From: Arcobacter arenosus
GTDB lineage: Bacteria > Campylobacterota > Campylobacteria > Campylobacterales > Arcobacteraceae
Direction of reading: 5' to 3'
DNA length: 64,000 bases
NCBI RefSeq assembly: GCF_005771535.1
Contig: NZ_VANU01000006.1
Location: forward strand, 124,001 to 188,000
Shown here: piece after piece, positions 9,409 through 27,688 of the stretch
Position numbering within the stretch: the stretch's first letter is position 1
Layout: each line of letters opens with the position of its first letter
Notes under the pieces: generated by a model
What the model saw: only the letters and a program-made list of their open reading frames with translations
What the model was told of the DNA's origin: nothing
The model's database searches: none
Made by a program: the position numbers and the translations under genes

Positions 9409-10068
9409 TTGCATAAAATACTTGTTTTAGAAGATGATGAATTATTCCTTGAAACACTTGAAGATTTCCTAGAAGATGAAGGTTTTGAAATAAAAACTGC
9501 ATCAAATGGTGAAGAGGTTTTAAGTATTACATATGAGAATAATTTTGATTTATACCTTTTTGATATTAATGTTCCCCTTATTGATGGAATTAGTCTCTTA
9601 AAAGAGTTAAGAAACTCTGGAGATAATACCCCTGCTATTTATCTAACTTCATATAAAGATAAAGAAAAATTAACCCAAGGATTTTTAACTGGTTGTGATG
9701 ATTATTTAAAAAAACCTATTGATCTTGATGAACTTCTACTTAGAATTCAATCTTTATTAAAAAGAAGTGGAAAATCCTTTGAAGATATTAAATTAACAGA
9801 ATATTTAACTTTTGACCCGATGAATAGAAGGGTTTTGTCAAATGGTACAGATATAAATCTTGCAGCTAAGGTTATTGATTTACTTGAACTATTTTTAGAA
9901 AAAAAAGAAAAGATTATAACTAAAGAGATGATTATTGATAGGCTTTGGGGCTGTTCTGAAGGTTATAGTGAAGGTTCAATTAGAGTTTATATTAATAACC
10001 TTAAAAAACTTCTTGGAAAAGATTCAATCAAAAATATAAAAGGTATTGGGTATAAAATTGAATTATAA
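9409..10068 (+). CDS. OmpR/PhoB-family response regulator
   Basis: 219 residues. The receiver domain has the acidic pocket LEDD at 8-10, the phosphoacceptor D52 (LFDINVPLIDG) and the conserved lysine in YLKKPID. It is followed by a winged-helix DNA-binding domain (about 125-219) with RVYINNLKKLLG and the terminal IKGIGYKI typical of the OmpR class. The start is TTG at 9409 after TTTGGAG. It overlaps the sensor kinase gene. OmpR-class regulators bind tandem half-sites one helical turn apart. Exactly such repeats (ATTAAC, 11-bp period) precede this gene, the TonB-receptor operon, exbB and the NosL region, so it is the likely regulator of those promoters (inference). Confidence 0.92.
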   Translation: MHKILVLEDDELFLETLEDFLEDEGFEIKTASNGEEVLSITYENNFDLYLFDINVPLIDGISLLKELRNSGDNTPAIYLTSYKDKEKLTQGFLTGCDDYLKKPIDLDELLLRIQSLLKRSGKSFEDIKLTEYLTFDPMNRRVLSNGTDINLAAKVIDLLELFLEKKEKIITKEMIIDRLWGCSEGYSEGSIRVYINNLKKLLGKDSIKNIKGIGYKIEL

Positions 10069-10909
10069 AAAAAGAAACTTTTTAATCACTAATTCAATAA
10101 TTGTTTTATTTGTTTTATTATTATCATTACTTTTAAATTTTTATTTAAATTCATTTATTGGTTTTAATCAAGAAACATTTATGTTTATTACTTTAACAGT
10201 TTTATTTTTTGGTTTAGGTTTATATCTTTTATTAAGTAAATCTATCTTTGAACCACTTTTCAAAAGTGATGAAAATCTACAAAAAACTGTAAAAGAGACC
10301 TTACATGAATTAAATATTCCTGTTTCTACAATTAATTTAAATACTCAAATGTTAGAAAAAAAGATTACAGATGAAAAGGCATTAAAAAGACTAAGTCGAA
10401 TAAAAAAAGCCTCAAATGAATTATTAAGACTTTATGAGGATATGGAATATCAGATAAAAAAAGAGATTGATAAAGTTGATGTTTCTGTATTTAATTTAAA
10501 AGATGTTACTTTTAATAGTTTAGATAAATTTGAAGATTTAAAAAAAGATATAAAAATAGAAGTAAATATTGAAGATTGTCAATTGAAAACTGATTTAAAT
10601 GGTTTTTCTAAAATGCTTGATAATCTTATTTCGAATGCTTTAAAATATAATTTAGAAGAAAATGGTTTAATAAAAATCACATATAACAATAATATTTTAT
10701 CTATTTATAATACTGGAAAAGAGATTGATACAAAAAACTTATTTATTATCTTTGATAAGTTTTTTCAAGAAGACTCTTCAAAGAATGGTTTTGGACTAGG
10801 ACTTTCTATGGTAAAAGAGTTTTGTGATAAAAATAAAATTGCCATAAAAATTGAACCATCTGCCAAGGGAAATAAATTTATTTTAAATTTTAAAAATATC
10901 ATAAACTAA
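10058..10909 (+). CDS. Sensor histidine kinase with minimal periplasmic loop
   Basis: About 283 residues from TTG at 10058 (an in-frame TTG at 10046 would add four). Two membrane helices lie near the N-terminus, with only a few residues between them. Next come a HisKA dimerisation helix with the phospho-accepting His in LHELNIPVS and an HATPase domain showing the N-box NLISNALKY, the G1 region YNTGKEID and the G2 motif GFGLGLSM. It lacks a PAS, HAMP or periplasmic sensor domain, so it resembles intramembrane-sensing kinases that read a membrane partner or event. It overlaps the regulator gene and is the natural cognate kinase. The TonB-receptor operon follows on the same strand. Confidence 0.88.
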   Translation: MNYKKRNFLITNSIIVLFVLLLSLLLNFYLNSFIGFNQETFMFITLTVLFFGLGLYLLLSKSIFEPLFKSDENLQKTVKETLHELNIPVSTINLNTQMLEKKITDEKALKRLSRIKKASNELLRLYEDMEYQIKKEIDKVDVSVFNLKDVTFNSLDKFEDLKKDIKIEVNIEDCQLKTDLNGFSKMLDNLISNALKYNLEENGLIKITYNNNILSIYNTGKEIDTKNLFIIFDKFFQEDSSKNGFGLGLSMVKEFCDKNKIAIKIEPSAKGNKFILNFKNIIN

Positions 10910-10953: not shown

Positions 10954-10991
10954 ATTAACACTTAATTAACAAATTGTAATTAATATTACAA
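10954..10991 (+). promoter_or_regulatory. Promoter of the TonB/double-cubane operon: ATTAAC tandem repeat plus palindrome on the -10 (site B)
   Basis: ATTAAC at 10954-10959 and at 10965-10970 have an 11-bp period. After exactly 10 bp comes a -10 TAATAT (10981-10986). Overlaying that -10 is an inverted repeat, TTGTAAT (10974-10980), TAAT, ATTACAA (10985-10991). Its core TGTAATTAATATTACA differs by one base from the Campylobacter CmeR operator as I remember it. The promoter thus shows an activator site in place of a -35 and a possible repressor site over the -10. Confidence 0.65.
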
Positions 10992-10992: not shown

Positions 10993-11118
10993 ATTAAATC
11001 TCCCATCTAAACAAAGTTTGGCGACCTAGATAGATGGAAGATAGTGAATTAACACCACTTCTATTATACTGAAATATTCTTTCATATTTTAAAGTGGTAA
11101 TTAAAGTATGGAGAAGAA
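10993..11118 (+). other. Structured 5' leader of the TonB-receptor mRNA
   Basis: The predicted untranslated leader is about 125 nt. CCATCTA (11003-11009) can pair with TAGATGG (11031-11037). ACCACTT (11054-11060) can pair either with an upstream GAAGATAGTG region (11038-11047) or with AAGTGGT (11092-11098) near the ribosome site GGAGAAG. The two pairings exclude each other, as in regulatory leaders. It matches no riboswitch class I recognise, and the cobalamin-box sequence is absent. Confidence 0.35.
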
Positions 11119-13209
11119 ATGCCTAAAATAAAAAAATCTATAAGTTTAGTAACATCCTTAATATTGGTTAATAGTTTGAATGCAGTTGAATTAGAATCAA
11201 TAAATGTTGTTTCATCAACTATTGATGATAAATATGAAGAAAAATTAAATAGTACTTCAAACACTTTTATTATAGATAATGAAGAAATAGAAAAAATGGA
11301 CCCTACAAATGTAGAAGATATTTTAAATACTATTCCTGGAATCACAGCTTCAAATGTTGGAAATGATAGAGTGAAAATCCACATTAGAGGTATTGATAAT
11401 CAAATGTACATGGGTGAAAGACCTGGTGTGGCTATAGTTATTGATGGTGTACCAGTTCAAGAAACTACTGGAAAAATTAATCTAGATTTAGACAATATTG
11501 AATCAATTAAAGTTATAAAGGGAAGTGCTTCATATTTGTATGGAAATGATGCAATTGGTGGTGCTTTAGTAATTACAACAAAAAGACCAAAAGGTATTAG
11601 TACTTCAAAATTTGAAACTGAAGTTGGTAGTTTTGGATTTAAAAGAGCTTTACTTGGTACAAATCAAAGTTTTGATAACAGTTCATTACAATTACAAGCT
11701 TCTTATAGAGATACAGATGGTTATTGGCATGATGCATATTTAAATCATAAATCAATTAATGGTAAATATCAATATTACTTAAATGATAATAGTGATTTAA
11801 CATTTGGGCTTGATTACACAAAAAGAAAATCTGGTGATGGAACTAGTGTTCATGGAATTGATGCAGTTATAAACGATCCTAAAAGTGTCAATGAAGTCTC
11901 TTATGCAGGGTTTTATGATACCTCTTTAATAAAAACATTTTTAACTTACTCAAATGATATTGATGATACTTCAAATTTTATGGCAGTTATTTCTAGATAT
12001 CAAGATGATACAACAAGTAGATCATCTAGAGATAGTACGGATACTTTCCATTTAAAAAATAATGATGAAAAATGGATTCAAAATACATTTAAATCAGAAT
12101 ATAGAAAATCTTTTGGAAATATAGCCGCTATGATTGGTGTAAATTTAGAAAAAAATTCACAAGACAATGAATCAGTTCAAAGGGTAACATATGGTTCACC
12201 ATGGACTGGTATTACAACAGCTGGAACACTATTATCTGATAATAATACAGATGAAAATATTTCTGCAATATATTTGGAATTGCAATATAAAATCACACCT
12301 AAATTAAATATAGTAGGAAACTATAGATATGATTATATCTCATATGATTATAAAAATAACATGGATAGTTCATTAAATGTTGATCCAAGCTATAATAATA
12401 GCTCATTTAAATTGGGTTTAAATTATGAGTTAGATGAAAACAACTATTTATATACTAGTTACTCAACAGGTTTTAGAGCTCCAACTGCAGGTCAGATTAG
12501 TGGAAATTTAAGTCTTTTACAATCAAATCCTGCTTTAGATATTCCAACTGAATTAGATCCAGAAAAAACACAAAATTTTGAAGTTGGAATAAAAGGAACA
12601 TTTAAAAATATCAACTATGATTTATCAGCTTATCAGTTAGATAGAATTGATTATATTGGTAAAAAAGCAGGTAGTTATATTTGGTCTACAGATGATGATG
12701 AATATTTAGCCGTTGATAATGTAGGTGACATGAGAAGTAGAGGAATTGAACTTGCAATAAATAGTAAAATCAATGATAGCTTTTCTTACAATTTAGCATA
12801 TACCTTTTTAGATGCTAAATTAATAGATTATTCTGTTAATCCAAATGATGGTAATCCTGAAATTGAACTAGATGGAAATTATGTTCCTAGAACATCAAGA
12901 CATACATTAAATTTTGGTCTTGATTGGAATGTTAATCAAAAATTTGTTTTATCTCCAGAAGTAGTGGCTAAAAGTAGTTATTACGCAGATGAAGCAAACT
13001 TATATAAACAACCAGGTTATGCAGTTATAAATTTAAGAGGTAATTATAAGATTACAGATTCTTTAGAAGTTTTTGGAAAGATTACAAATTTATTAGATAA
13101 AAACTACTATCAATTTGTAAATGTATCTTATGGAAGTGATATGACTGATGCAACAATTAGAGTAGCTCATCCAAGAGCATTCTATGCAGGTTTAAGATAT
13201 AAATTTTAG
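11119..13209 (+). CDS. TonB-dependent outer-membrane receptor
   Basis: 696 residues. There is an N-terminal signal peptide (cleavage near LNA-VE) and a TonB-box-like segment close to ESINVVSS. A plug domain contains VEDILNTIPGI, HIRGIDNQ and GNDAIGGALVI. A long beta-barrel with many Tyr/Asn-rich strands follows and ends in the outer-membrane insertion signature GLRYKF. The protein imports a scarce, large or metal-complexed ligand using energy from TonB-ExbBD. It heads an operon with Fe-S membrane proteins and a double-cubane-type reductase, and the exbBD-tonB genes follow the operon. The ligand is unknown. The NosL and His-rich domains downstream favour a metal or metal complex. The ATG has GGAGAAGAA upstream. 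Confidence 0.92.
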   Translation: MPKIKKSISLVTSLILVNSLNAVELESINVVSSTIDDKYEEKLNSTSNTFIIDNEEIEKMDPTNVEDILNTIPGITASNVGNDRVKIHIRGIDNQMYMGERPGVAIVIDGVPVQETTGKINLDLDNIESIKVIKGSASYLYGNDAIGGALVITTKRPKGISTSKFETEVGSFGFKRALLGTNQSFDNSSLQLQASYRDTDGYWHDAYLNHKSINGKYQYYLNDNSDLTFGLDYTKRKSGDGTSVHGIDAVINDPKSVNEVSYAGFYDTSLIKTFLTYSNDIDDTSNFMAVISRYQDDTTSRSSRDSTDTFHLKNNDEKWIQNTFKSEYRKSFGNIAAMIGVNLEKNSQDNESVQRVTYGSPWTGITTAGTLLSDNNTDENISAIYLELQYKITPKLNIVGNYRYDYISYDYKNNMDSSLNVDPSYNNSSFKLGLNYELDENNYLYTSYSTGFRAPTAGQISGNLSLLQSNPALDIPTELDPEKTQNFEVGIKGTFKNINYDLSAYQLDRIDYIGKKAGSYIWSTDDDEYLAVDNVGDMRSRGIELAINSKINDSFSYNLAYTFLDAKLIDYSVNPNDGNPEIELDGNYVPRTSRHTLNFGLDWNVNQKFVLSPEVVAKSSYYADEANLYKQPGYAVINLRGNYKITDSLEVFGKITNLLDKNYYQFVNVSYGSDMTDATIRVAHPRAFYAGLRYKF

Positions 13210-13218
13210 TAAATATTG

Positions 13219-13872
13219 ATGGAAATTATAACTTTATTTTCTCTTTTTATTCTTGGAATATCCTATGGATCAACGGCATGCATGTTTTCATGTATGCCAT
13301 TTTTAACACCACTTTTAGTTACAAATTCTGGTTCTATCGCAAGTGCTAATAAAGTGGTTATCCCTTTTTCTTTAGGTAGAGTTACAAGTTATATTTTCAT
13401 CTCTATGATTGCTTCATATAGTGCTATTTTTACAAAAAATATTATCAAAGATACGCAAACATTTCAAATACTTTTAGGTCTTTTTACAATATCTATGAGT
13501 CTTTATCTTTTTTACAAAATTTTTAATAAAAATAGTTCATGTGGTTCATCAAATGTAAAAGTTAAAACAAAAGGGTCATTTGCAATTTTTACAATGGGTC
13601 TTTTGATTTCACTAAATCCATGTGTTCCAGTTTTAACACTAATTTCATTTTCTGCTAATACTACAACTTTAAGTGAAGGCTTTCTTTATGGTCTTTTCTT
13701 TGGATTTGGTGCAGTAATTACACCCTATGTATTTTACACACTTTTAGTATCAAATATTGTTAGTGGTTTAATTGAAGCCTTTAAAAAATATTCAAAAATC
13801 ATAGAGTTAAGCTCTATTGCTTTTTTATTTTTAGTGGGTTGTTTGATTTTACTTGGAAAAGTTAATTTATAA
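13219..13872 (+). CDS. DsbD/CcdA- or SafE-like six-helix membrane protein
   Basis: 217 residues from the ATG (a TTG one codon earlier is possible) with about six membrane helices. Helix 1 carries TACMFSCMPFL and helix 4 carries LNPCVPVL. Paired cysteine/proline motifs in matching helices are the hallmark of the CcdA/DsbD and TauE/SafE (UreH_2) superfamily, which move reducing equivalents or metal across the inner membrane. It starts 10 bp after the TonB receptor stop and ends 12 bp before the Fe-S/NosL fusion, so it belongs to that operon. Its role is probably thiol-reductant or copper handling for the periplasmic domains. The exact subfamily is uncertain. Confidence 0.75.
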   Translation: MEIITLFSLFILGISYGSTACMFSCMPFLTPLLVTNSGSIASANKVVIPFSLGRVTSYIFISMIASYSAIFTKNIIKDTQTFQILLGLFTISMSLYLFYKIFNKNSSCGSSNVKVKTKGSFAIFTMGLLISLNPCVPVLTLISFSANTTTLSEGFLYGLFFGFGAVITPYVFYTLLVSNIVSGLIEAFKKYSKIIELSSIAFLFLVGCLILLGKVNL

Positions 13873-13884
13873 GGAAAAAATTTA

Positions 13885-16608
13885 ATGATTGATTTTGTTA
13901 AAAGAGATAACAACGATATCTTTAAAAACTCTATTTTAGGCTTTTTATTTAAAAACAAAAAGTTTTTATTAGCTTTAAGAATAGCAGTTACAGCTTTATT
14001 TTTTTATGCAATTTATTATGGATTTGTAAATCCTGGTCGTGATAATATTTTTACAGGAGCAGTTTTCTGGGGAATATTTTGGGCTTTATTTATGGTTGTA
14101 ACTTTATCTACTTTTGGGAGAATTTTTTGTGGTATTTGTCCCCATGGATTTTTAGGAAAATATATCACAAAGTTTGGTTTGAAAAAAACAATGCCAAAAT
14201 GGATGCAAAATAGATATATTGGTATTTTGATTTTAGTTATTGGTTGGTGGGGTGTTTATTATACCTTTGATGGTTTTTGGAAGTCTGCATTTAATACTGC
14301 ACTAATGTTTTCAGTACTAACACTACTTTCTTTTATTATATATTATATTTATAAAGATATGAGTTATTGCAAATATATTTGTCCTATAGGAACTCTTACA
14401 AGGGCATATGATAAACTATCTTTTACTAAATTAGAAACTTATACACAGCATTGTAAAGATTGTAAAACTTTTGAGTGTGCAAATGCTTGTGAGTATAATT
14501 TAAAACCTTTTACTTTTGCAAAAAAGAATCAAACAGATGATTGTACTTTATGTATGGATTGTGCCACTTCTTGTGAAGCAGTAAGTTTTAAATTCACAAA
14601 ACCTGCTGAACAATTAAATAAAAAATTAAAAATTCTGAATGCAGAAATATGGACATATATTTTAATCTTGGCTTCAATACCTGTATCAATGGGCTTTGCC
14701 CATGGTTTAAATAGAAGCAATATAGCTGAAGAGTTTATTTGGAATAAAACAGCAGCTTTTTTTGATTTAACACAATATGCTGGTGGTTTTGCTTTCCTTT
14801 ATGCTGTTATATTTACAGTTTTCTTCTCATTTTTAGGACTTTTTTTAGCTTCTAAAGTATTAAAAAAAGAGTTCAATCAAATATTTACAACATTAGGAAT
14901 TGCATTTATTCCACTTTTTATTTTTGCTTCACTAGGGCATACTTTAGAGATGTTCTTTATAAAAGATTATGTAAAAATAGTTGAAGGTTTTGCACAAGCT
15001 TTTGGAATGAGTGTTGATGTTGTACCCTTAGCTAAAAGAGGTGATGCTTGGTTACATTACTTTAAACTATTTAAATGGATTGGTGTAATTTGGGCTTTTA
15101 TTATCCTTTACAAAAGAATAAAACTTATTGATAGTACAAAAGTAAGAAAACTATTTGGGTTTTTCTTTGCTTCCTTTGCCATACTATTTTATATAGGTCT
15201 TAATATTTACACTGGTTATATTTTCTCTAAATATGGAGCAAAAGCTAGAGGTGGACATTCTCATGGTGGAAATGCTTCTGGAAAAATGTTTCAAACTGTT
15301 TCCTTTAAAGATGCAACTTTAATCCAAGAGGGAAAAGATAAAACAAGTGGTGTTGTTTGTGGTATGAACTTACCAATGTTTTATAAAACAAACCATAGTA
15401 CAACTTTAGATGGAAAACCTAGACAATACTGTTCTATTCATTGTTTAACTGAAGATTTAAAAATAAAAAAACTTTCCCTTGAAAATATAAAAGTAGTTGA
15501 TGTAACTACTTTAAAGTTTATTGATGCAAAAAGTGCTTTTTATGTAGTTGGAAGTAGACAAAAAGGTACTATGTCAATGGTTAGTAAATATGCCTTTGCA
15601 AATAAAAAAGATGCATTTGTTTTTAGTAAAAAATATGGAGGAGAAGTTGTTGATTTCCAAAAAGCAATGGAAAAAGCAATGGAAGATTTTAAACCAAAAA
15701 AATCATGGGGTAAAAAAGCTTCTATAAATCCAAAACAAGAGTTTTACTTGTCTTTAACAGATCCAACTGCAAAGAAAAAATCTTATGGTGGACATATGCA
15801 TGGTGGTGGAGGTAAACCATCATCAAAAAAAGTTATTCCAACAAAAAAACTTTATTTAGCCTATGAAAACAGAGGTAAAAAATCAATTTATCCTACAAAA
15901 AATATTAGTTTTTATGTCTTTGATAAAAATCAAAATCAAAAAGATATTATTGAAGAGAATTCGAGGGGTAAAAAAGTTTATAAATTTGAAACTCCTAGCA
16001 ATGGATATTATAATATCTTTGCAATTGAGCAAACAAAAGTAGATGAGAAATCATATTATAAAGTTGCAAAGCTAGAGCATCTTCAAGGCAAACATGGAAG
16101 TGATGATATTTATACTAAAGATATAAAAAAAGAGTTAAATCAAAATGTATCAAAAATAGATTTAATTAGAATTAAAAGTGAAGATGAAGATAGCTTTTTT
16201 TATAGACTTAGTATGGGAGATACTCTAAGTTTCAAAGCTTTATTTAATGGAAAACCACTAAAAGATGCACCACTAAAAATAAAACTTCAAAGTGGATGGG
16301 TAAAAAGATTTAAAACTGATGACAATGGTTTAGTAAATATTACACTTATTAGAGACTATTTCCCAAATTGGGAAGATTTTGACAAAAGATATAAACAGGA
16401 GTTAATGTTAACTTTAGAGTATGAAGTTGAAAATGAAAAGTATATTTTAACTTATCCTGCTTTTTATTATCCAAATAAAAGCGACTATGAGTCATACTCA
16501 TATGGTCTGATAATTCTTTTAATAACTTCACTAATAGGTGGTTTTATAGTTTATAGATTTAGAAAAAATAGAACAAAAGCCTTTGCAGAGACTAGATATG
16601 TTAAGTAG
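13885..16608 (+). CDS. Membrane Fe-S polyferredoxin fused to NosL and DUF4198-like periplasmic domains
   Basis: A 907-residue fusion. Residues 1-240 are a NapH/NosR-type membrane ferredoxin: CGICP (82-86), CKYICP (162-167), and two cysteine clusters at 190-202 and 220-230 able to hold 4Fe-4S centres. Residues 250-450 form a second set of helices. A His-rich linker (GGHSHGG, 456-462) leads to a NosL-like copper-binding domain (about 465-605) with CGMNLPM (492-498), CSIHC (516-520) and YVVGS. A second His-rich loop (GGHMHGGGG, 635-643) precedes a DUF4198-like beta domain and a C-terminal membrane anchor near 875-895. It probably moves electrons across the inner membrane and handles a metal in the periplasm. 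I know of no characterised protein with this full architecture. Confidence 0.85.
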   Translation: MIDFVKRDNNDIFKNSILGFLFKNKKFLLALRIAVTALFFYAIYYGFVNPGRDNIFTGAVFWGIFWALFMVVTLSTFGRIFCGICPHGFLGKYITKFGLKKTMPKWMQNRYIGILILVIGWWGVYYTFDGFWKSAFNTALMFSVLTLLSFIIYYIYKDMSYCKYICPIGTLTRAYDKLSFTKLETYTQHCKDCKTFECANACEYNLKPFTFAKKNQTDDCTLCMDCATSCEAVSFKFTKPAEQLNKKLKILNAEIWTYILILASIPVSMGFAHGLNRSNIAEEFIWNKTAAFFDLTQYAGGFAFLYAVIFTVFFSFLGLFLASKVLKKEFNQIFTTLGIAFIPLFIFASLGHTLEMFFIKDYVKIVEGFAQAFGMSVDVVPLAKRGDAWLHYFKLFKWIGVIWAFIILYKRIKLIDSTKVRKLFGFFFASFAILFYIGLNIYTGYIFSKYGAKARGGHSHGGNASGKMFQTVSFKDATLIQEGKDKTSGVVCGMNLPMFYKTNHSTTLDGKPRQYCSIHCLTEDLKIKKLSLENIKVVDVTTLKFIDAKSAFYVVGSRQKGTMSMVSKYAFANKKDAFVFSKKYGGEVVDFQKAMEKAMEDFKPKKSWGKKASINPKQEFYLSLTDPTAKKKSYGGHMHGGGGKPSSKKVIPTKKLYLAYENRGKKSIYPTKNISFYVFDKNQNQKDIIEENSRGKKVYKFETPSNGYYNIFAIEQTKVDEKSYYKVAKLEHLQGKHGSDDIYTKDIKKELNQNVSKIDLIRIKSEDEDSFFYRLSMGDTLSFKALFNGKPLKDAPLKIKLQSGWVKRFKTDDNGLVNITLIRDYFPNWEDFDKRYKQELMLTLEYEVENEKYILTYPAFYYPNKSDYESYSYGLIILLITSLIGGFIVYRFRKNRTKAFAETRYVK

Positions 16609-17584
16609 ATTAAAAAGAACAGTAAATAATGTAAATCTGATTAGATTTAGAAATATTATTCAAATTTTAACTTTTATTCTTTTTATTTATGGTGGCTATT
16701 TTGCAATAGATCTTGGCTCAAGACTTCCAATATTTGCTTGTCCATATAATGACACAACATCAGGCGCATGTTATTTGATTCCTTTACAGCATCAACTTTC
16801 AATGCCTACACAAGTTTTATTGGGTGGGGCTTCAATAGCTGTAATAACTGGAATTTTAGTCTTTTTATTTTGGTTTGTATTTTTAAATAAAGCTTGGTGT
16901 GGATATGTTTGTCCTTTTGGGACTTTACAAGATTGGATGACTAAACTTAGAAAATCTATTGGTATAAGATATTCAACTTATACACAACATCAATTTGAAA
17001 AACTCTCAAAAATAAAATATATCTTTTTATTTATAGTTTTGGTTTTTCCTTTACTAATGGGAGTTGGTCTTTTAGGTTCAGAGTGGTCAGCAGCTTTTTG
17101 TAAAATTTGTCCAGCAAGAATAATTACACCAATGTTTAGTGGTGATTTTTCACAATGGGCAATTGATTTTTCAAGTAAAACAGCAATTTTACTAACAACC
17201 CTTGGGGTTGTTTTTGCAGGACTTTTCTTTATTGGTAGTTTTATTAAAAAAAGATTCTTTTGCTTTTTTTGCCCTATGAGTGCATTACACTATATTTTTT
17301 CAAAAATCTCAATAGTTCAGTTTAAAAAAGATGGAAGTAAGTGTACAAGATGTGGGGATTGTTATGCTGTTTGTGATATGCAAATAAAAGATATAGCTGA
17401 TAATGTAACTGATACAAATATTTTGAGGGATGATTGTATTTTATGTTTAAAATGTATAGCTGCGTGTCCTGAGGATGATGTACTACATTTTGATATTTTT
17501 AAGATAAAAGCTTTCACTTCCACAAAAGAGGGCTTTGAAAAAAGAATGGGAATAGAATATTTAAAGGCAAACAATGACAAGTAA
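16598..17584 (+). CDS. NapH/NosH-like membrane polyferredoxin
   Basis: About 328 residues from the ATG at 16598, which lies inside the end of the preceding gene (a TTG at 16583 is the alternative). Four to five membrane helices carry CGYVCPFG and FCFFCPMS motifs. The C-terminus has two 4Fe-4S ferredoxin motifs, CTRCGDCYAVC and CILCLKCIAACP. The NapH/NosH/MauN family accepts electrons from menaquinol or passes them between periplasm and cytoplasm. No napA, nosZ or nitrate/N2O reductase gene is nearby. The overlap with the double-cubane-type gene (17574) instead suggests it supplies or withdraws electrons for that system. Confidence 0.85.
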   Translation: MLSRLKRTVNNVNLIRFRNIIQILTFILFIYGGYFAIDLGSRLPIFACPYNDTTSGACYLIPLQHQLSMPTQVLLGGASIAVITGILVFLFWFVFLNKAWCGYVCPFGTLQDWMTKLRKSIGIRYSTYTQHQFEKLSKIKYIFLFIVLVFPLLMGVGLLGSEWSAAFCKICPARIITPMFSGDFSQWAIDFSSKTAILLTTLGVVFAGLFFIGSFIKKRFFCFFCPMSALHYIFSKISIVQFKKDGSKCTRCGDCYAVCDMQIKDIADNVTDTNILRDDCILCLKCIAACPEDDVLHFDIFKIKAFTSTKEGFEKRMGIEYLKANNDK

Positions 17585-18851
17585 ATTTAAACATGATATA
17601 GAATCACCACTTCAAAAACAAAATCGTCATAAAGCTATGGAAGCTATTAGAATTATAAATACTTTAAAAGATGATTTTAAAAATCCAATTGAGAGTATGA
17701 ATTACTTTTATAAGCTTTTTGAAGATGTATTTTGTAATCAAAAATCTTTGCATGATGGAAAATTAAAAGTTGGAACGATGTGTATACAAATACCAAGTGA
17801 GATTATATACGCTTTAGATGCCGTTCCAATTAGACTTTGTAATGGGTTTTATAGTGATGATGAGATTGGTAGTGATTATATGCCCCAAAAATCGTGTCCT
17901 TTAGTTCGTTCAACAGTAGGACATTTTGCTTCAGGAAACTTTTCTGATAAACCTCATTTAATTTACTCTCCAACAACTTGTGATCAAAAAACAAAAGCGG
18001 GAGTTACAATAGAAAGCTTTGGATACGAAGTTGTTGATGTTGATTTTCCAAGAGTTAAAGATAGTGAGATTAGTAGGGAGTATTTTAGAAGAAGTATTAG
18101 AGAGTTTGCAATAGATTTATCAAAAAAAACTGGAAATAAACTAAATAAAAAGAGTTTAAAACAAAGTATTGCAAAGATTGGCTATGCACAATCACTCTAT
18201 CATAAACTATGTGAATATAGAAAAAAGAAAAATATTGTAATTAGTGGAAATGATATGTTTTTTGTGACAAATGCATTTTTTTTTGACAAAATTGATTCAT
18301 GGATAGATGCTTGTGAAAATCTTTTAAAAGAGTGCAAACAAAGGGAGGATGAAAACCTGTTTGTAAATGGAAAAATTAGTCCTAGAATAGTTTATACAGG
18401 TTCACCTCCAATTTTCCCAAATTATAAAGTTCCTATAGTAATTGAAGAATCAGATGGAATTATTGTTGCAGATGAAACCTGTAGTTCAAATAGAATGTTC
18501 AATGATAGAGTTGCAGTTGATGAGTGGTTTGTAAATGATATGTTAGATTCAATGGCAGATAAATATTTAAAAGCTTGTACTTGTCCCATCTTTACTAAAA
18601 ATGATGACCGAATTAGAAGAATAATTGATTTAGTAAAAACTTATAGTGCCGATGGAGTTGTTTATCAATCATTTGCAGGTTGTACAGTTTATGAAGCAGA
18701 ACAAAGAAGTGTTTTAGAAGCAATGGAAAAAGAGGGAATTCCTATTTTATATATTGAAAGTGATTATAGTCCATCGCAAGGTGGACAATTAACTACTAGA
18801 GTTGAAGCATTTATAGAGTCATTAAAAACAAGAAAGAGGATAAAAAAGTGA
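17574..18851 (+). CDS. 2-hydroxyacyl-CoA dehydratase-fold protein of the double-cubane-cluster (DCCP/YjiM) type
   Basis: 425 residues of the HgdB/BcrC/FldB superfamily. Cysteines at 70, 89, 108, 136, 303, 335, 337 and 370 are candidate Fe-S ligands. CIQIPSEIIYALDAVPIRLC and the C-terminal ESDYSPSQGGQLTTRVEAF are the diagnostic segments. In the single-subunit DCCP branch, which has no second dehydratase subunit or CoA-transferase nearby (as here), a double-cubane Fe-S cluster is reduced by an ATP-driven partner. It is reported to reduce small molecules such as acetylene, azide and hydrazine. The activase gene overlaps its stop codon, so the pair is complete. It is cytoplasmic, and its natural substrate is unknown. 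Confidence 0.85.
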   Translation: MTSKFKHDIESPLQKQNRHKAMEAIRIINTLKDDFKNPIESMNYFYKLFEDVFCNQKSLHDGKLKVGTMCIQIPSEIIYALDAVPIRLCNGFYSDDEIGSDYMPQKSCPLVRSTVGHFASGNFSDKPHLIYSPTTCDQKTKAGVTIESFGYEVVDVDFPRVKDSEISREYFRRSIREFAIDLSKKTGNKLNKKSLKQSIAKIGYAQSLYHKLCEYRKKKNIVISGNDMFFVTNAFFFDKIDSWIDACENLLKECKQREDENLFVNGKISPRIVYTGSPPIFPNYKVPIVIEESDGIIVADETCSSNRMFNDRVAVDEWFVNDMLDSMADKYLKACTCPIFTKNDDRIRRIIDLVKTYSADGVVYQSFAGCTVYEAEQRSVLEAMEKEGIPILYIESDYSPSQGGQLTTRVEAFIESLKTRKRIKK

Positions 18852-19651
18852 AATATTTTGTAGGTATAGATATAGGTTCAACATCAATAAAAATTTCTAT
18901 TATTGATGAAAAGAAAAATTTAATTGGTTCAAAAACTAGTGCTAGTGGAAGTATGTTTTATAAATATGCCCAAGAAACTTTAGATTTACTTTTAAAAGAA
19001 CTTGAAATATCACCAAAGGATGTTGTTTATACTGTATCAACGGGATATGGAAGAAAACTTTATAAAGAAGCTGATGAAAATATTAGTGAGATTACAGCAA
19101 ATGCAATTGGAGCAAGAGCAAGTGCTAAAGAGTTTGGAGAGATTAAAACCATCATAAACATTGGAGGTCAAGATAGTAAAGCAATCTCTTTAGATAATGA
19201 TGGAAATGTAACTAATTTTGCAATGAATGATAGATGTGCAGCTGGGACTGGAAAATTTCTTGATGTAGTTGCCTTAAAACTTGAAATGGGTGTTGATGAA
19301 TTAGGTGAGAAACATTTTAAGGCTAAAGGAACACCTTTAGGTGTAAGTAGTACTTGTGCAGTATTTGCAGAGAGTGAAATTATTGGACTCCTTGGAAATA
19401 ATCATAGTGTTGAAGATATTGTTTGTGGAGTTCATTATTCTATTGCAAAAAGAATTGTAAAACTTGTAAAAAGAGTTGGGGTAAAAGAAGGTATCTATTT
19501 TGATGGAGGTCCTGCACTAAATGAAGGTTTGGTAAATGCTATTGAAAATGAATTAGGAAAAAGAGTATTTATTCCAAAGTTTCCACAAGTAACTACTTCT
19601 TATGGTGCAGCTATTATGGGTGTAGATTCATTTTTATATGATCAAAATTAA
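18848..19651 (+). CDS. ATP-dependent activase/reductase of the BadF/HgdC family (DCCP reductase)
   Basis: 267-residue ASKHA-fold ATPase starting at GTG inside the stop of the preceding gene. Visible motifs are GIDIGSTSIK (phosphate 1), NIGGQDSK (phosphate 2), DRCAAGTGKF with C130, STCAVFAESE with C170, and FDGGPALN (adenosine site). The dimer holds one 4Fe-4S cluster between subunits through the two cysteines (HgdC C127 and C166 are the recalled equivalents). It uses ATP hydrolysis to push an electron into the partner dehydratase/DCCP at very low potential. Its presence confirms that the 17574 gene is a redox enzyme that needs strong reduction. Confidence 0.92.
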   Translation: MKYFVGIDIGSTSIKISIIDEKKNLIGSKTSASGSMFYKYAQETLDLLLKELEISPKDVVYTVSTGYGRKLYKEADENISEITANAIGARASAKEFGEIKTIINIGGQDSKAISLDNDGNVTNFAMNDRCAAGTGKFLDVVALKLEMGVDELGEKHFKAKGTPLGVSSTCAVFAESEIIGLLGNNHSVEDIVCGVHYSIAKRIVKLVKRVGVKEGIYFDGGPALNEGLVNAIENELGKRVFIPKFPQVTTSYGAAIMGVDSFLYDQN

Positions 19652-19679
19652 CTTAAAATTAACACATCTTATATAAAAT
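19647..19679 (+). promoter_or_regulatory. exbB promoter: ATTAAC tandem repeat and -10 (site C)
   Basis: ATTAAC at 19647-19652 and 19658-19663 (11-bp period) is followed after exactly 10 bp by TAAAAT (19674-19679). The first half-site overlaps the stop codon of the activase gene. The layout equals sites B and D. The exbB ATG is at 19706 with TTAGGAGAAG upstream. Confidence 0.65.
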
Positions 19680-19705
19680 TAAGTTGGTTTTTAGGAGAAG
19701 AAAAA

Positions 19706-20131
19706 ATGAATATTGAGTTTTTAAAACATTCTGTTGATTATGGAGTTATTGCATTGCTACTTTTTATGAGTTTTATAGCCGTAATGTTTTTTATTGAAAG
19801 ACTTTTTTTCTATAGAAAACTTGATGTTAATAAATATAAAAATAAAAAGCAGCTTGATGTTGCCCTTACAAAAAATCTAACTTTTATAGGGACTATTGCT
19901 TCTAACTCACCTTATATAGGACTTCTTGGTACTGTATTAGCTATCATGCTTACATTTATGACTATGAGTGAAGGTGATATTGTTGCAACTAAAATAATGA
20001 GTTCCTTAGCACTTGCCTTAAAAGCAACAGCTGTTGGTTTAGTTGTGGCAATTATATCAATGGTTTTTTATAATATTTTAAGTCGATACGCAGAAGTTTT
20101 GGAAAGCAGATATGAAAATCAAGAAATATGA
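19706..20131 (+). CDS. exbB: ExbB-like proton channel subunit
   Basis: 141-residue MotA/TolQ/ExbB-family inner-membrane protein with an N-terminal helix (about 14-31) and two C-terminal helices around LGLLGTVLAIMLTF and LALALKATAVGLVVAI. These contain the conserved Gly and Thr residues that line the proton path. With ExbD it converts the proton motive force into TonB movement. It overlaps exbD by 20 bp and has its own promoter with the shared ATTAAC repeats, so it can be co-induced with the TonB receptor genes. The short form lacking a long cytoplasmic loop is common in Campylobacterota. Confidence 0.9.
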   Translation: MNIEFLKHSVDYGVIALLLFMSFIAVMFFIERLFFYRKLDVNKYKNKKQLDVALTKNLTFIGTIASNSPYIGLLGTVLAIMLTFMTMSEGDIVATKIMSSLALALKATAVGLVVAIISMVFYNILSRYAEVLESRYENQEI

Positions 20132-20495
20132 TTCAATAAATGTAATACCGTTTATTGATGTTCTTTTGGTACTTTTAGCAATAGTTTTAATGACATCAAC
20201 TTTTATTGCAAAAGGTGTAATCCCTGTATCTCTTCCAAAGGCTAGTTCAGCTGATAATCAAAAAATCAAAAAAGAGTTAAGTATTTATATAAAGAATACT
20301 GGACAAATTTATCTTGACAAAGAAGAGTTGATAGTTGAAGAATTAATAAATAGAATTTCAGAAGAACAAAAAGATAGACCAATTTTAATAAATAGTGACA
20401 AAGATGCAAAATTTGAAATATTTGTATCTATTTTAGACACTTTAAAATCAAATGAATTTGAAAATATATCAATAGTAACGGTAAAACAACAATGA
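20112..20495 (+). CDS. exbD: ExbD-like proton channel subunit
   Basis: 127 residues with a short cytoplasmic N-terminus and a single membrane helix carrying the essential Asp in NVIPFIDVLLVLLAIVLM. The periplasmic domain (about 45-127) ends in the peptidoglycan-binding-like fold typical of ExbD/TolR. It overlaps both exbB and tonB. It assembles with ExbB to energise TonB. Confidence 0.92.
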   Translation: MKIKKYDSINVIPFIDVLLVLLAIVLMTSTFIAKGVIPVSLPKASSADNQKIKKELSIYIKNTGQIYLDKEELIVEELINRISEEQKDRPILINSDKDAKFEIFVSILDTLKSNEFENISIVTVKQQ

Positions 20496-21193
20496 GATAT
20501 TTAAACTCTTTTTTCTTAACCACTTTACTTTATGTAAGTTTGGCAACTTTACTTTTATTTGCAAACCCCTTTGATAAATTGCAGTCTCAAAATAAAGAAG
20601 AAAAGAAAAAAGTCTCTTTAAATTATGTTCAAATTATAAAACCTAAACCTATTGAACCAATAGTTGAAGAAAAGGTAGAAAAAAACCTTGAGCCAGAAAT
20701 TAAAAAAATAGTAAAAAAAGAGCCTAAAAAGAAAGTGATAAAAAAAGTAGAAAAGAAAAAAGTAGTTAAAAAGAAGATTGATAAGATAGTAAAAAAAGAG
20801 CCAATAAAAAAGCAAAAAACAAAAAAATTTGAAGAAACTATTATTGATAAGGTAGTTAAAAAAGAGATTCCTCAAAAAGTTATACAAAAAAATATCAACA
20901 AAAACATCAACTATGAAGAAGATTTTTTAGCAAATCATTTACATATGATAAAAAAAGAGATACAAAAAAATATAATGTACTCAAAAAGAGCAAGAAAACT
21001 TAAGATTGAAGGTAAAGTTTTAGTAGAGTTTTGTTTAACTAAATCTGGTGAAATAAAAAAAGTTAAAACACTCAAAGGACATAAACTATTACAAAAGTCC
21101 ACAATAGAAGCAATATATAGTGCCTCAGCAAATTTCCCCAAGGTTCAAAAAACAATTACTATAAGAGTTCCTATTGAATACAGATTAATTTAA
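20492..21193 (+). CDS. tonB: TonB energy transducer
   Basis: 233 residues. An N-terminal membrane anchor (about 6-23) is followed by a long rigid periplasmic spacer of Lys/Glu/Pro-rich repeats (about 45-145, with blocks such as KKEPKKKVIKKVEKKK). The C-terminal TonB domain (about 150-233) shows the VEFCLTKSGEIKKVK strand and the terminal PIEYRL. Unlike classical TonB, the spacer is dominated by Lys-Val-Lys rather than Pro-Glu/Pro-Lys dipeptides. It probably serves the three TonB receptors in this window. It overlaps exbD by 4 bp. Confidence 0.9.
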   Translation: MRYLNSFFLTTLLYVSLATLLLFANPFDKLQSQNKEEKKKVSLNYVQIIKPKPIEPIVEEKVEKNLEPEIKKIVKKEPKKKVIKKVEKKKVVKKKIDKIVKKEPIKKQKTKKFEETIIDKVVKKEIPQKVIQKNINKNINYEEDFLANHLHMIKKEIQKNIMYSKRARKLKIEGKVLVEFCLTKSGEIKKVKTLKGHKLLQKSTIEAIYSASANFPKVQKTITIRVPIEYRLI

Positions 21194-21288: not shown

Positions 21289-21684
21289 ATGAAAACTTCA
21301 AAAATTATTCTAAGTGGTTTATTGGTATTTGGTGCAACATTTATGTTTGCTGAAACGTTACCAAGTTTTGGTCCTGTAGCTTTTTCAGCATATGATACGA
21401 ATAAAGATGGTCAAATTAGTCCTGCTGAATTTAATGCAGTAAAAGAAAAAAGAATGACTCAAAAAGCTGAACAAGGTAGACTTATGATGAATGCTAAGAA
21501 TTCACCTTCTTTTTCTGATGTTGATACAAATGGTGATGGTATCATTTCACAAAATGAACTTCAAATTCATCAACAAGCTAGATTTCAAAATAGAGTAAAT
21601 CAAAAAAATAATATGATGAATGGTCAAGGCATGGGCAAAGGAATGGGACAAGGTATGGCACCTGGAAAAGGACGAAACTGGTAA
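21289..21684 (+). CDS. Secreted EF-hand protein with Met/Gly-rich tail
   Basis: 131 residues: a signal peptide (cleavage near MFA-ET), two EF-hand calcium loops (DTNKDGQISPAE at 36-47 and DTNGDGIISQNE at 79-90), and a C-terminal Gly/Met-rich tail from 108 with MM, MGKGMGQGM and no cysteine. The EF-hands should bind Ca2+. Regularly spaced methionines in a periplasmic tail resemble Cu(I)-binding Met motifs, which would fit the NosL/His-rich domains upstream, but this is an inference. It sits 95 bp after tonB with its own AAGGAGA ribosome site. An intrinsic terminator follows. Confidence 0.85.
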   Translation: MKTSKIILSGLLVFGATFMFAETLPSFGPVAFSAYDTNKDGQISPAEFNAVKEKRMTQKAEQGRLMMNAKNSPSFSDVDTNGDGIISQNELQIHQQARFQNRVNQKNNMMNGQGMGKGMGQGMAPGKGRNW

Positions 21685-24098: not shown

Positions 24099-24131
24099 AT
24101 TAACAAATAATTAACATTTTAAAGATAGTAT
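24099..24131 (+). promoter_or_regulatory. Promoter of the small RNA/NosL region: ATTAAC tandem repeat and -10 (site D)
   Basis: ATTAAC at 24099-24104 and 24110-24115 (11-bp period) is followed after exactly 10 bp by TAGTAT (24126-24131). A stronger-looking TATAAA overlaps at 24129-24134. The arrangement matches sites B and C, and no separate -35 is visible. Confidence 0.65.
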
Positions 24132-24279: not shown

Positions 24280-24783
24280 ATGAAGAAACTTTTACCTATT
24301 TTTACTATTATTGTATTAATACTTATTATTGTTGGTATCTTTTTGTCAATGTCAAATCAAAAACAAATGGTTGTTATTCATGAGGGAAACCATGAACATA
24401 AACCAATAGATATTACTTTAAATCATTTCCAAGACACTCAATGTGGTATGACTATTACTTCAAACAAACATTCAGCACAAGCAATTGCTCCTGATGGTAG
24501 AACTTGGTTTTTTGATGATCCTGGTTGTTTAGCTTTATGGTATAAAAATATAGAGTTTCAGAAAGATGCCATTATATGGGTTTTCTCAAATGATACAAAT
24601 GAATATATAGATGGTAAAAAAGCTTGGTATGATAAAACTTCGAATACAACAATGGGGTATGGATTTGGAGCTTATAAAAACAAAAAAGAGGGTATGATTA
24701 GTTTTGATGAAATGATAATCAAAATGTACAGAGGTGAAAATTTAACCAACCCTTTAATTAGAAACAAACTTTTAGGAAAATAA
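24280..24783 (+). CDS. NosL-like membrane-anchored copper-binding protein
   Basis: 167 residues. An N-terminal membrane anchor (about 5-24) precedes a periplasmic domain with DTQCGMTIT (C55, M57), a short helix region and FDDPGCLALW (C83). These fit the NosL fold, which binds Cu(I) through Cys/Met and hands it to partner proteins. A His-containing linker (HEGNHEHKP, 34-42) adds possible metal ligands. It overlaps the following SafE-like gene by one base, and the two probably act together. There is no nosZ in the window, so the recipient is unknown. Candidates are the cytochrome oxidase or the domain-rich protein at 13885. Confidence 0.75.
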   Translation: MKKLLPIFTIIVLILIIVGIFLSMSNQKQMVVIHEGNHEHKPIDITLNHFQDTQCGMTITSNKHSAQAIAPDGRTWFFDDPGCLALWYKNIEFQKDAIIWVFSNDTNEYIDGKKAWYDKTSNTTMGYGFGAYKNKKEGMISFDEMIIKMYRGENLTNPLIRNKLLGK

Positions 24784-25493
24784 TGGAAAGTGTAAGTATA
24801 CTAACAATTATATCGATTGCTTTTTTAGGTTCTTTTGGTCATTGTATTGGCATGTGTGGAGGAATTGTAGTCGCTTATTCAAGTACTAAAATTGATTCTT
24901 CATGGACTAAAGCTAAACAATCAATCTCTCATGTATTATATTCATTTGGTAGAATCACAACTTATATTATTCTTGGGTTTATTTTTGGTTTTGTAGGTGG
25001 AGTTGTAACTTTTGATAATATGACTAGTGGTATTTTACTTTTAACAACAGGTGTGTTAATGATACTAGTTGGTTTATCTTTAAGTGGAAAACTAAAATTC
25101 TTAACTTCATTAGAGCACTCAGTTTCTAAATCTGCTATATATCAACAAACCTTTAGGGCTTTAATAGGTTCGAATAGTTTAACAAGTTTTTATTTACTTG
25201 GAATGTTAAATGGTTTATTACCTTGTGGTTTTGTTTATGTTTTTGCAATCACTGCTGCTAGTACAGGAAGCCCATTTTGGGGAGCTTTTGTAATGCTGGT
25301 TTTTGGTCTTAGTACACTTCCTGCGATGTTTTCTTTAGGTTTCTTTGTAGGGGTATTTAAACAAATGGCTTTACGAAGTTTATTTATTAATATAGCTTCA
25401 GTTCTTGTAATCTTATTTGGATTTTATATTATGTATCAAGGATATGAATATATTATTGACCCAAATAAATCTATTTTAAGCTGTCATATATAA
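24783..25493 (+). CDS. TauE/SafE (UreH_2)-family membrane protein
   Basis: 236 residues, six or more helices, with the family signature GHCIGMCGG in helix 1 and LLPCGFVYVF in helix 4. This group is widespread beside cytochrome oxidase and copper-handling genes in Campylobacterota. Sulfite export is the historic label, but copper or reductant movement across the inner membrane is equally likely. It is coupled to the NosL-like gene upstream by a one-base overlap. A new promoter (TATAAT at 25535) separates it from the cobalamin uptake genes. Confidence 0.85.
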   Translation: MESVSILTIISIAFLGSFGHCIGMCGGIVVAYSSTKIDSSWTKAKQSISHVLYSFGRITTYIILGFIFGFVGGVVTFDNMTSGILLLTTGVLMILVGLSLSGKLKFLTSLEHSVSKSAIYQQTFRALIGSNSLTSFYLLGMLNGLLPCGFVYVFAITAASTGSPFWGAFVMLVFGLSTLPAMFSLGFFVGVFKQMALRSLFINIASVLVILFGFYIMYQGYEYIIDPNKSILSCHI

Positions 25494-25780: not shown

Positions 25781-27688
25781 ATGGAAAACAAAAAATTAAC
25801 TACAAGCTTAGTTGCAAGCTTTCTTTTAGCAACAAATCTTTACTCTAATGATACAAATCAAATCTCAAGCGTTACTATTTCAAGTTCATTAATAGAAACA
25901 AATGAAAAAGATGCTACATATACAACAGAAATTTACACTAAAGAAGATATTGAAAGTTCAAAATCAAAAGATATATATGAGTTCTTAAATTCACAAACAT
26001 CACTTGTAATAGCTCCTAATGGAGGAAATACATTTACTCAAAAAATTGATTTAAGGGGATATGGTATTACAGATGGTTATCAAAATTTAGTTGTTACTGT
26101 AAATGGAAGAAGATTAAATAATATTGACATGACTTCACAACTTCTTTCATCTATACCTTTAGAATCAGTTGAGAAAATTGAGATTATAAAAGGTAGTGGT
26201 TCTGTTCAATATGGTGATGGAGCAAATTCAGGTGCAATAAATATTATTACAAATGGAAAAAATGAAAATTATATTAAAACATATTTTGGTAATAATGGAA
26301 CAAAAAATAGTGCATTAAGTTTAGGGTTTAATAATGATAATATAATTTTAAATACATATATGGATTATACAACTACTGATGGTTCTAGAAATTTACAAAG
26401 TGGTACAAAAGATGATAATTATAGTAGAAATAGAAATATAAACCTTATTTACTTTCCTACTGATAATTTAGAAGTAAAAATCGGAAGAAATTTTTCTGAT
26501 ATGAATATTAAATATGCAGGTGCTTTAACATTAAATCAATATAAGTCAAATCCATATCAATTTACTACTATTGGTTGGGATACTGAACAATATTTTAGTT
26601 CTTATGTTACTGATATTGGATTAAAATATGATTTTTTGAGGGATTATTCCTTTGAAACAAATTTTAGTAATGAAGACAAAAAAAGTATGTATTCTTCAGG
26701 CTGGACTTCAAACTATGATTATAAAACTTTAAATTCAAAACTTAACATTAATAAAAATATATATTCTTTAAGTATGGGAATTGATGTTTTTGAGGGAGAT
26801 AGAATAACTTCTTCTAATACTGTAACAAAAGAAAACAAAGCTTTATTTATAACAGGTAATTATTTTGTTTCAAAACAATTCTCTATTTCTTCAGGACTAA
26901 GAAATGAAGAAGTTAAATTTGATCTTTTAGATGCAGGTGGCGTTAACAAAGATATTAGTTTAAATGCATTAGATTTAGGATTCAACTATAAGTTAGATGA
27001 AAACAATTCTTTTTTTGCTAATTTTAATAAATCTTATCAGACTCCAGATTTAGATAGACTTTTTTGGTGGGGTTCTTTTAACGGTTATATTGAACCAGCA
27101 AAGGTTAAAAACTTTAATTTTGGATACACAGGTATTCAAGATAACAATAAATTGAAAATATCTTTATTTTATTCAAAGTTGAAAAATGAAATCTACTTTT
27201 ATAGCGTTGGTGCAACACAAAAAAATACAAATATTGATAAATCACACAAATACGGTATTGAAATTTTTGATAAATATTTAATTAATAAAAATTTATATAC
27301 ATCTTTAAATTATTCGTATATTATTGCAAAAATTGATGAAGAGACTGAAAGTGGAACTGTTTATGATGGAAAAGATTTACCTGGTGTTTCAAATCATAAT
27401 CTTACAGTTAATATAGGCTACGAAATAAATAAATTTTCAGGAGTTTTATCTCATACATATAGAAGTGAAGCTTATGGGGCAGAAGATTTTGGAAATAGTT
27501 TTTCTCAAAAACAAGAAGCCTATAACTCAACAGATTTAAGTGTTTCTTATAAGTATAAAAATTTAGAGGTTTTTGGAAAAATTCAAAACTTATTTGATGA
27601 AGATAATGGTTTATGGATAAATGATGACCAAATATATCCAGTAAATTTTGAAAGAACATATTACGCTGGTATAAAGTATAGATTTTAA
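25781..27688 (+). CDS. TonB-dependent receptor (probably corrinoid or metallophore)
   Basis: 635 residues: signal peptide (cleavage near YSN-DT), TonB-box-like ISSVTISSS, a plug with DLRGYGITDGYQNLVVTVNG and YGDGANSGAINIIT, and a 22-strand-type barrel ending in AGIKYRF. It lies directly before a second receptor and BtuFCD genes. A role in corrinoid uptake is therefore likely, but the plug differs from BtuB and fits a different ligand form (for example a cobamide precursor or another metal complex). It is 5 bp from the next receptor frame. Confidence 0.88.
   Translation: MENKKLTTSLVASFLLATNLYSNDTNQISSVTISSSLIETNEKDATYTTEIYTKEDIESSKSKDIYEFLNSQTSLVIAPNGGNTFTQKIDLRGYGITDGYQNLVVTVNGRRLNNIDMTSQLLSSIPLESVEKIEIIKGSGSVQYGDGANSGAINIITNGKNENYIKTYFGNNGTKNSALSLGFNNDNIILNTYMDYTTTDGSRNLQSGTKDDNYSRNRNINLIYFPTDNLEVKIGRNFSDMNIKYAGALTLNQYKSNPYQFTTIGWDTEQYFSSYVTDIGLKYDFLRDYSFETNFSNEDKKSMYSSGWTSNYDYKTLNSKLNINKNIYSLSMGIDVFEGDRITSSNTVTKENKALFITGNYFVSKQFSISSGLRNEEVKFDLLDAGGVNKDISLNALDLGFNYKLDENNSFFANFNKSYQTPDLDRLFWWGSFNGYIEPAKVKNFNFGYTGIQDNNKLKISLFYSKLKNEIYFYSVGATQKNTNIDKSHKYGIEIFDKYLINKNLYTSLNYSYIIAKIDEETESGTVYDGKDLPGVSNHNLTVNIGYEINKFSGVLSHTYRSEAYGAEDFGNSFSQKQEAYNSTDLSVSYKYKNLEVFGKIQNLFDEDNGLWINDDQIYPVNFERTYYAGIKYRF

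Follow-up and report, generated by a model that had tools for sequence, protein, structure and literature searches.

A conserved Campylobacterota operon joins a TonB-dependent receptor to a double-cubane-type reductase and is probably part of a copper regulon

Gene organisation of the operon

The stretch of DNA analysed here, hereafter the window, comprises 64,000 nt of the Arcobacter arenosus genome (3.13 Mb in 18 contigs), and all coordinates are positions within it unless a genome or locus is named. Our subject is an operon at 11119-21193 in which a TonB-dependent outer-membrane receptor, membrane iron-sulfur proteins and a reductase of the double-cubane (DCCP) type are encoded together. 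As listed in the set of open reading frames (ORFs), its genes all lie on the (+) strand, from the receptor through to TonB. A preliminary description had outlined this gene set, and the ORF list and family matches confirmed that every ORF it named exists, on one strand and where it had been placed. The tight spacing and mostly overlapping frames that it reported were likewise found: five of the eight junctions overlap and the remaining gaps are 6, 12 and 54 bases with mechanical start calls, though the number of overlaps depends in part on which starts are chosen, two of them being TTG.

The first gene (11119-13209) encodes the receptor (PF00593, 166 bits). Its best model was TIGR01783, a siderophore receptor family, at 203 bits just under the cut-off of 223.5, and TIGR01778 (OprC/NosA) was not among its 23 model matches at E 1e-10 or better. 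A DsbD_2/SafE-like membrane protein follows (13216-13872; DsbD_2, 59 bits), and then a membrane polyferredoxin fusion (13885-16608) in which Pfam-type matches delimit two Fer4_5 stretches (47 bits), a NosL domain at residues 484-593 (57 bits), optional in relatives, and a C-terminal domain. The preliminary description had called this protein an Fe-S/NosL/DUF4198-like fusion; its Fer4_5 and NosL parts stood, while the DUF4198 likeness of the C-terminal domain is weak (21.6 bits, under the cut-off of 34). The next gene (16583-17584) encodes a NapH-like polyferredoxin with a two-cluster ferredoxin domain, which scored under both NapH/MauN cut-offs (TIGR02163, 82.6 vs 213 bits; PRK09477, 87.5 vs 234 bits). 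This gene overlaps that of the DCCP-like reductase (17574-18851; PF06050, 306 bits), which is followed by a BadF/BcrA-type ATP-driven activase (18848-19651; TIGR00241, 217 bits, above the cut-off of 125), ExbB (19706-20131; TIGR02805, 148 bits, over cut-off), ExbD (20112-20495; TIGR02804, 123.5 bits, at cut-off) and TonB (20492-21193; PF03544, 49 bits). No PepSY_TM protein was found among the family matches of the operon ORFs.

Identity of the DCCP-like reductase

The best model for the 17574-18851 protein was NCBIfam double_cubane (NF040772), its 316 bits lying just under the equivalog cut-off of 350, whereas models of benzoyl-CoA reductase and hydroxyacyl-CoA dehydratase gave only 52-78 bits. 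These scores favour the earlier claim that the protein is not a hydroxyacyl-CoA dehydratase, and no result ran contrary to it; the tree described below was built without an acyl-CoA dehydratase outgroup. The further claim that no acyl-CoA gene lies nearby agreed with the neighbours identified around the gene, among which there was none. The closest solved structures were those of DCCP (6eno/7yyl, E 1e-54 to 3e-54). Eight cysteines are invariant across 34 relatives, and seven of these residues align with cysteines of 6eno/7yyl, and DCCP shares with the window protein a partner of the activase family.

The home genome also holds a second, ordinary DCCP on contig 8 (G000:C8:76897-77946, locus L127; NF040772, 455.6 bits), and the ordinary DCCPs found in the same bacterial family share 31-34% identity with the window protein. 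When an alignment of the window protein's clade was searched against 397 Campylobacterota genomes, 75 gave a match and the scores were bimodal, with 30 places in 28 genomes at 644 bits or more and the rest at 253 bits or less. In a tree of 67 proteins the 53 clade rows fell on one side of a branch with support 100/100. All 36 loci found among 84,980 species were in Campylobacterota, in a search that finds close relatives only, and one of 24 plasmid records, from a Sulfurovum, was above 60% identity. By sequence, then, the reductase forms a separate Campylobacterota clade apart from ordinary DCCP. PMC11971306 states that the biological function of DCCPs is unknown and calls them archetypes of a reductase family.

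Conservation of the gene neighbourhood

In order to examine the company of the reductase, we compared locus stretches of about 18 kb. Several loci of the whole-genome set lie on contigs that also occur in a second set of loci; counts are given for the whole-genome set only, which covers 28 of the 30 clade places and leaves out G341 and the window itself. The NapH-like gene was found by tblastn at all 28 loci and the activase at 26; the two loci without it (L108 and L112) are second operon copies in genomes that hold another copy with an activase. ORF clustering recovered the fusion or its C-terminal part at 28 loci, the TonB receptor at 27, the DsbD-like protein at 25, tonB at 13, exbB at 12, exbD at 11 and a permease of the resistance-nodulation-division (RND) type at 10. 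At 12 ordinary DCCP loci, neither tblastn nor ORF clustering found the receptor, the fusion, NapH or DsbD. For the receptor alone this gives 27/28 against 0/12, an association beyond chance (Fisher P 2e-9, a nominal value because the loci are related). The window protein, though nearest to DCCP in structure, differs from it in its NF040772 score, in the NapH at its side and in its clade. The operon is genuine, and it has been kept among Campylobacterota.

Of 18 aligned fusions, that of the window among them, 11 carry the NosL domain. At least six further loci (L034, L035, L037, L038, L039 and L060, five of them titled Sulfurovum or Sulfurovaceae) match the C-terminal domain of the fusion only and carry NapH and DCCP without the N-terminal polyferredoxin. 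The gene order proposed at the outset to be kept in relatives is therefore kept for the receptor and the polyferredoxins with the reductase and not for NosL, though NosL genes elsewhere share the regulator box described below.

Operons of this kind also occur without the reductase. Those of G056, G067 and G083 carry a receptor, the N-terminal polyferredoxin of the fusion, exbB, exbD and tonB and lack genes for NapH, DCCP and the activase, and G259 has a receptor and polyferredoxin version. The receptors of G056 and G067 are 52% and 49% identical to the window receptor, and that of G083 comes from another family; the G083 operon adjoins relatives of the regulator pair (63% and 59% identical) and of the 24280-25493 gene pair, both described below. 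The G083 receptor gene behind the leader (L259:10556-12430) is split into two ORFs and is perhaps broken. Since operons with receptor and polyferredoxin exist without DCCP, the reductase is best seen as an add-on. This distribution suggests that both electron modules can serve receptors of the operon's kind. It also suggests that a system of receptor and polyferredoxin either acquired the DCCP module or lost it.

Several residues are strictly kept. In the NapH-like protein Cys53, Cys63, His70, three further cysteine pairs and eight ferredoxin cysteines are present in 51/51 sequences; the Cys53-Cys63-His70 loop is presumably periplasmic, judging from NapH topology. Cys130 and Cys170 of the activase occur in 54/54 sequences, and we take them to be the two bridging, cluster-binding cysteines. 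Four cysteines of the DsbD-like protein are invariant (43/43), and the receptor keeps His88 and Met98 in 34 of 35 sequences and His595 in 33.

The ordinary DCCP loci keep other company. SelD was found at 5/12 and YedF at 5/12, six loci in total (L127, L120, L123, L125, L128 and L129), with the identity of each checked on one representative; this fits the listing of DCCP among selenium-linked genes in a figure legend of PMC10418091. At L130, two tandem ordinary DCCP genes stand ahead of a single activase.

A regulator pair and a shared box

Immediately upstream of the operon lie genes for an OmpR-type response regulator (9409-10068, (+); Response_reg and Trans_reg_C) and its partner sensor histidine kinase (10046-10909, (+); HATPase_c over cut-off, HisKA just below). 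These are followed by the box TTAACACTTAATTAACA (10955-10971, (+)), a direct repeat of the form TTAACA-N5-TTAACA. A second exact box (24100-24116, (+)) stands before a gene pair at 24280-25493 (+), assigned from domain matches and identity to a NosL-like lipoprotein and a DsbD_2/SafE-like protein; the lipoprotein has no Pfam match but shares 32% identity with a small protein from the nos cluster of G153. The two exact boxes compare with 0.11 expected in the window. A box with one mismatch (19648-19664, (+)) ends 42 bases from the exbB start, and in four relatives an exact box is found at a similar distance (41-47 bases) from exbB; the four one-mismatch boxes of the window are not above the 2.97 expected by chance, and that at 19648 is assigned from its place. 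A promoter scan gave no more matches than chance. In G102 and G241 the box also stands ahead of genes for relatives of the response regulator (55% and 51% identical), and we presume that the 9409-10068 regulator reads these boxes.

The home genome contains five boxes against two for the reversed pattern. Three of the five precede the operon, the 24280-25493 pair and two divergent NosL genes on contig 5, and the other two are at places without a fitting gene. The box-led divergent NosL genes of contig 5 (G000:C5:112277-117362; L144:8278-13363) are followed by an FtsX-type permease, an ABC ATPase identified by eye and a membrane protein, likely a copper-handling operon of the same regulon.

In 12 relatives, 51 boxes were counted against 14 for the reversed control. 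Fifty were examined, the 51st overlapping another, and the next gene within 400 bases was of a recognised kind for 30 of the 50 compared with 1 of the 14 controls. These genes comprised ten receptors of the operon's kind (nine the operon's own; that of L172 matches weakly), four exbB (three in the operon), five OprC-like receptors, four NosL, three SafE-like, two regulators, one NosZ (in G153) and one EF-hand protein. The set of query genes was picked after the hits had been seen. As the box was first spotted at the operon, and 12 of the 30 are the operon's receptor or exbB, 18 of the 30 recognised genes are independent of it. Sulfurovum mangrovi ST1-3 likewise has exact boxes ahead of two receptors; its operon runs from LN246_RS14995 to RS15030, and the first receptor is annotated there as two ORFs.

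The five OprC-like receptors, each from a different genome, all contain CxxxM and HxM. In the one receptor that was aligned (L267), both motifs align with the copper residues of OprC (6fok), a site described in PMC8610252. Their best model was TIGR01778 at 161-204 bits, under the cut-off of 472, and they are homologues of OprC, not equivalogs; the window receptor belongs to another receptor family. Taken together, these box partners lead us to infer that copper is the signal of the regulon.

Two other signals were weighed against copper. The regulator could sense anaerobiosis, nitrogen oxides or redox state, and the operon could import iron, heme or corrinoid as part of an anaerobic respiration regulon. 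The box before NosZ in G153 fits this, as do box-led membrane proteins in G215 (with a cytochrome c domain) and G435; the operon receptor scores best as a siderophore/heme/B12 type, and two more box-led receptors score weakly as siderophore or heme types. However, the same box is found at copper receptors of the OprC-like kind and at a number of separate NosL genes, and NosZ over cut-off is missing from 13 of the 28 operon genomes, so that we consider this explanation unlikely. Alternatively, the operon could be a ferric-siderophore system with the box answering to general metal stress. Ferric catecholates have very negative potentials, from which an ATP-driven reductase might free iron, and the best model of the receptor is a siderophore family; yet the box partners from families of known metal (NosL, NosZ and OprC-like) are copper types, which leaves this explanation highly improbable.

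NosZ over cut-off occurs in 15 of the 28 clade genomes against 111 of 369 others (nominal P 0.02, the genomes being taken as the same 397). N2O reductase as the sole client of the operon was rejected given the 13 clade genomes without it.

The box also precedes a pair of membrane-protein genes in G215 (L262:6424-9137, with the RNA leader described below) and G435 (L264:7001-9616). The 464-aa membrane protein of G215 carries the C-terminal cytochrome c domain, and the pair is a possible respiratory enzyme within the regulon.

A structured RNA leader

Between the box and the receptor gene of the window lies a structured RNA leader (10998-11101, (+)), supported by two models (R1 and R2) and by covariation. 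It consists of a hairpin with the invariant loop region AGTTTGGCGAC (AGTTTGGYGAC across the eleven leaders) on a variable stem, followed by a second, long-range stem. Ten leaders besides that of the window were found, nine of them before TonB receptors and one, in G215, before the 464-aa membrane protein.

Across eight leaders (set A11, rows taken by E-value), standard pairs fill 97% of pair cells, and both sides have changed at 14 of the 19 pairs. None of 500 shuffles matched any of five measures, and slid partners paired at 31-55%; as A11 was fitted to the model's structure, these counts lean toward that structure. Further pair counts used the 10 rows of set A10, out of 30, that contain the core. 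Flank shuffles, which do not lean on the model structure, reached 10 of 11 leaders in at most 28 of 2000 cases and L108a in 118.

The window leader scored 72.7 bits with R2, to whose seed it belongs, and 24.8 bits (E 0.03) with R1, outside whose seed it lies, with filters off; under default filters R1 missed it. R2 found unseen leaders before the receptors of G056 (71 bits, E 3e-10) and of G083 (56 bits, E 3e-7); the match before the G067 receptor was weaker (37.5 bits, E 0.0022). Matches in G013 (E 0.0023) and G403 (E 0.0039) score like G067 and are near neither box nor receptor; they are counted with the wider motif described below and not as leaders. Of the weaker matches read, namely those of G374, G308, G226, G055 and G094 (with G374 the weakest score included), only that of G374 (E 0.06, the L112 operon) stands before an operon receptor. 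Rfam gave three matches to the window leader, all far below gathering score, and tRNAs only at five leader-bearing loci.

An identical or closely similar loop region is also seen in hairpins at sites without a box: L239 (G055), L243 (G094), L245 (G226), L251 (G403), L253 (G083) and L220 (G013). Some of these we take to be near excisionase-like genes and one before a kdsA-like gene. Since the hairpin is found at unrelated intergenic sites, at least this first element belongs to a wider motif, and we do not claim the leader as a copper riboswitch. At L034, L035, L037 and L060 the box is followed by a different conserved-looking leader, several examples starting with GAGGGG or similar, which may be a second structured RNA.

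Proposed role of the operon

The operon probably encodes a copper-regulon uptake system whose electron module is new. The preliminary proposal that a metal complex is imported and then reduced fits these data, and the regulon points to copper as the metal; transport and reduction themselves are inferred. Based on the gene families and the shared boxes, we propose the following scheme with middling confidence. The two-component regulator would switch on the receptor, as the shared boxes suggest, and the receptor, powered by its own ExbBD-TonB, would bring a copper chelate into the periplasm. There the complex would be reduced by the membrane polyferredoxins, which have Cys/His sites and NosL or C-terminal domains and would also take the Cu(I) set free. 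In the least certain step, the NapH-DCCP-activase add-on would send ATP-driven electrons of very low potential out of the cytoplasm and, by way of NapH, into the periplasm, where a copper complex that resists reduction could then be opened.

The uptake part of this scheme varies known copper systems. In PMC12914433 and PMC13038864, CrtA/CrpH of Bordetella and relatives is described as a copper TonB receptor followed by a PepSY_TM membrane protein under copper regulation; a copper-reductase role for CrpH is offered in PMC13038864 as speculation. The window operon resembles these systems in coupling a copper-linked TonB receptor to a membrane redox partner, with ExbBD-TonB in some of them. It differs in having Fe-S polyferredoxins and a DCCP-like reductase in place of a PepSY_TM protein, and its receptor matches CrtA (9rvq) weakly (E 5e-14). 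The polyferredoxins would fill the role proposed for the PepSY_TM protein. The arrangement of L172 in G241, where the box is followed by a receptor and then by a protein 50% identical to the PepSY_TM protein of G259, is the one published for CrtA/CrpH. The Fer4_5 membrane Fe-S motifs of the window proteins are common to the polyferredoxins CcoG, FixG, NosR and NapH, of which CcoG is called a Cu reductase in PMC12617631; the window fusion differs in its extra NosL or C-terminal domains and the NapH-like protein in its low model scores.

The link to DCCP is the surprising part. A search of open-licence papers found no description that joins a copper/TonB uptake operon to a double-cubane reductase, nor of the operon itself. 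The earlier claim that no described pathway exists must accordingly be narrowed, as a copper receptor with a PepSY_TM partner has been published, and it holds for the double-cubane link. That an ATP-driven double-cubane reductase serves metal nutrition, freeing copper from a TonB-imported complex by electrons sent along a membrane Fe-S wire or by attack on the ligand, is a tentative proposal that we regard as less likely than not.

A number of observations weigh against the copper-uptake scheme. The copper assignment is drawn from co-regulation, and the receptor scores as a siderophore/heme/B12 type rather than a copper type; the box-led receptors L154 and L172 score weakly as siderophore or heme types. 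Twenty of the 50 boxes have no recognised next gene, seven of these being flagged inside ORFs, and the genomes without NosZ noted above count here too. The NosL domain is optional, 7 of the 18 aligned fusions being without it. In a table of PMC4176598, a study of a Caulobacter zinc regulator, a receptor, a PepSY_TM-associated protein and a DUF4198 gene are listed, and neither DUF4198 likeness nor PepSY company is therefore copper-specific. The weakest step is the need for an ATP-driven potential: most copper complexes are reducible without one, so that DCCP would be over-powered for plain Cu(II). Three options follow: the natural copper complex may be unusually hard to reduce, DCCP may act on the ligand instead, or DCCP may have a substrate in the cytoplasm, with NapH feeding the activase. 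NapH could equally feed the activase, with the electron flow reversed.

The last of these options can be extended to a different pathway, in which a copper-bound organic ligand is imported, DCCP reduces a triple-bonded, hydrazine-like or otherwise inert group of the ligand in the cytoplasm, NapH donates only to the activase and an RND pump exports the product. DCCPs reduce acetylene, hydrazine and azide in vitro, according to PMC11971306, and both the two-cluster ferredoxin domain of NapH and the overlap of its gene with that of DCCP would suit such a donor. The AcrB-type RND permease relative present at 10 of the 28 loci lies mostly just behind the activase (Pfam checked on one), and in the isolate Sulfurovum mangrovi ST1-3, whose operon is on a plasmid record, it again follows the activase. 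On the other hand, an RND gene was not found at 18 of the 28 clade loci or in the window operon, and the operon contains no recognised inner-membrane importer for a chelate. We judge this pathway improbable compared with the release of copper in the periplasm.

In the habitats of many Campylobacterota copper is in short supply, since it is bound by sulfide. The conserved operon and the shared box tie one DCCP-like clade to copper supply in this phylum, which turns the role of DCCP into a testable question. If the proposed release of copper is correct, a DCCP-type enzyme, a relative of the Birch-type benzoyl-CoA reductases, would gain its first physiological role. The metal-release step would be of a new kind, served by a two-component regulator of its own and by an RNA leader not described before. 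It would also suggest that reductive copper release at the membrane, itself only proposed for CrtA/CrpH, may have arisen repeatedly from unrelated parts.

Other genes in the window

Directly behind tonB, a gene at 21289-21684 (+) encodes a small EF-hand protein, identified by family match. No exact box was found ahead of it in the window; its relative in G215 has a box just upstream, and it is a possible member of the regulon. Further downstream, 25781-34749 holds two more TonB receptors, a periplasmic binding protein, a FecCD permease with its ATPase, and CobB/CobQ-type and CbiB genes. This region, which adjoins the NosL-like/SafE pair, is probably a corrinoid uptake and salvage cluster.

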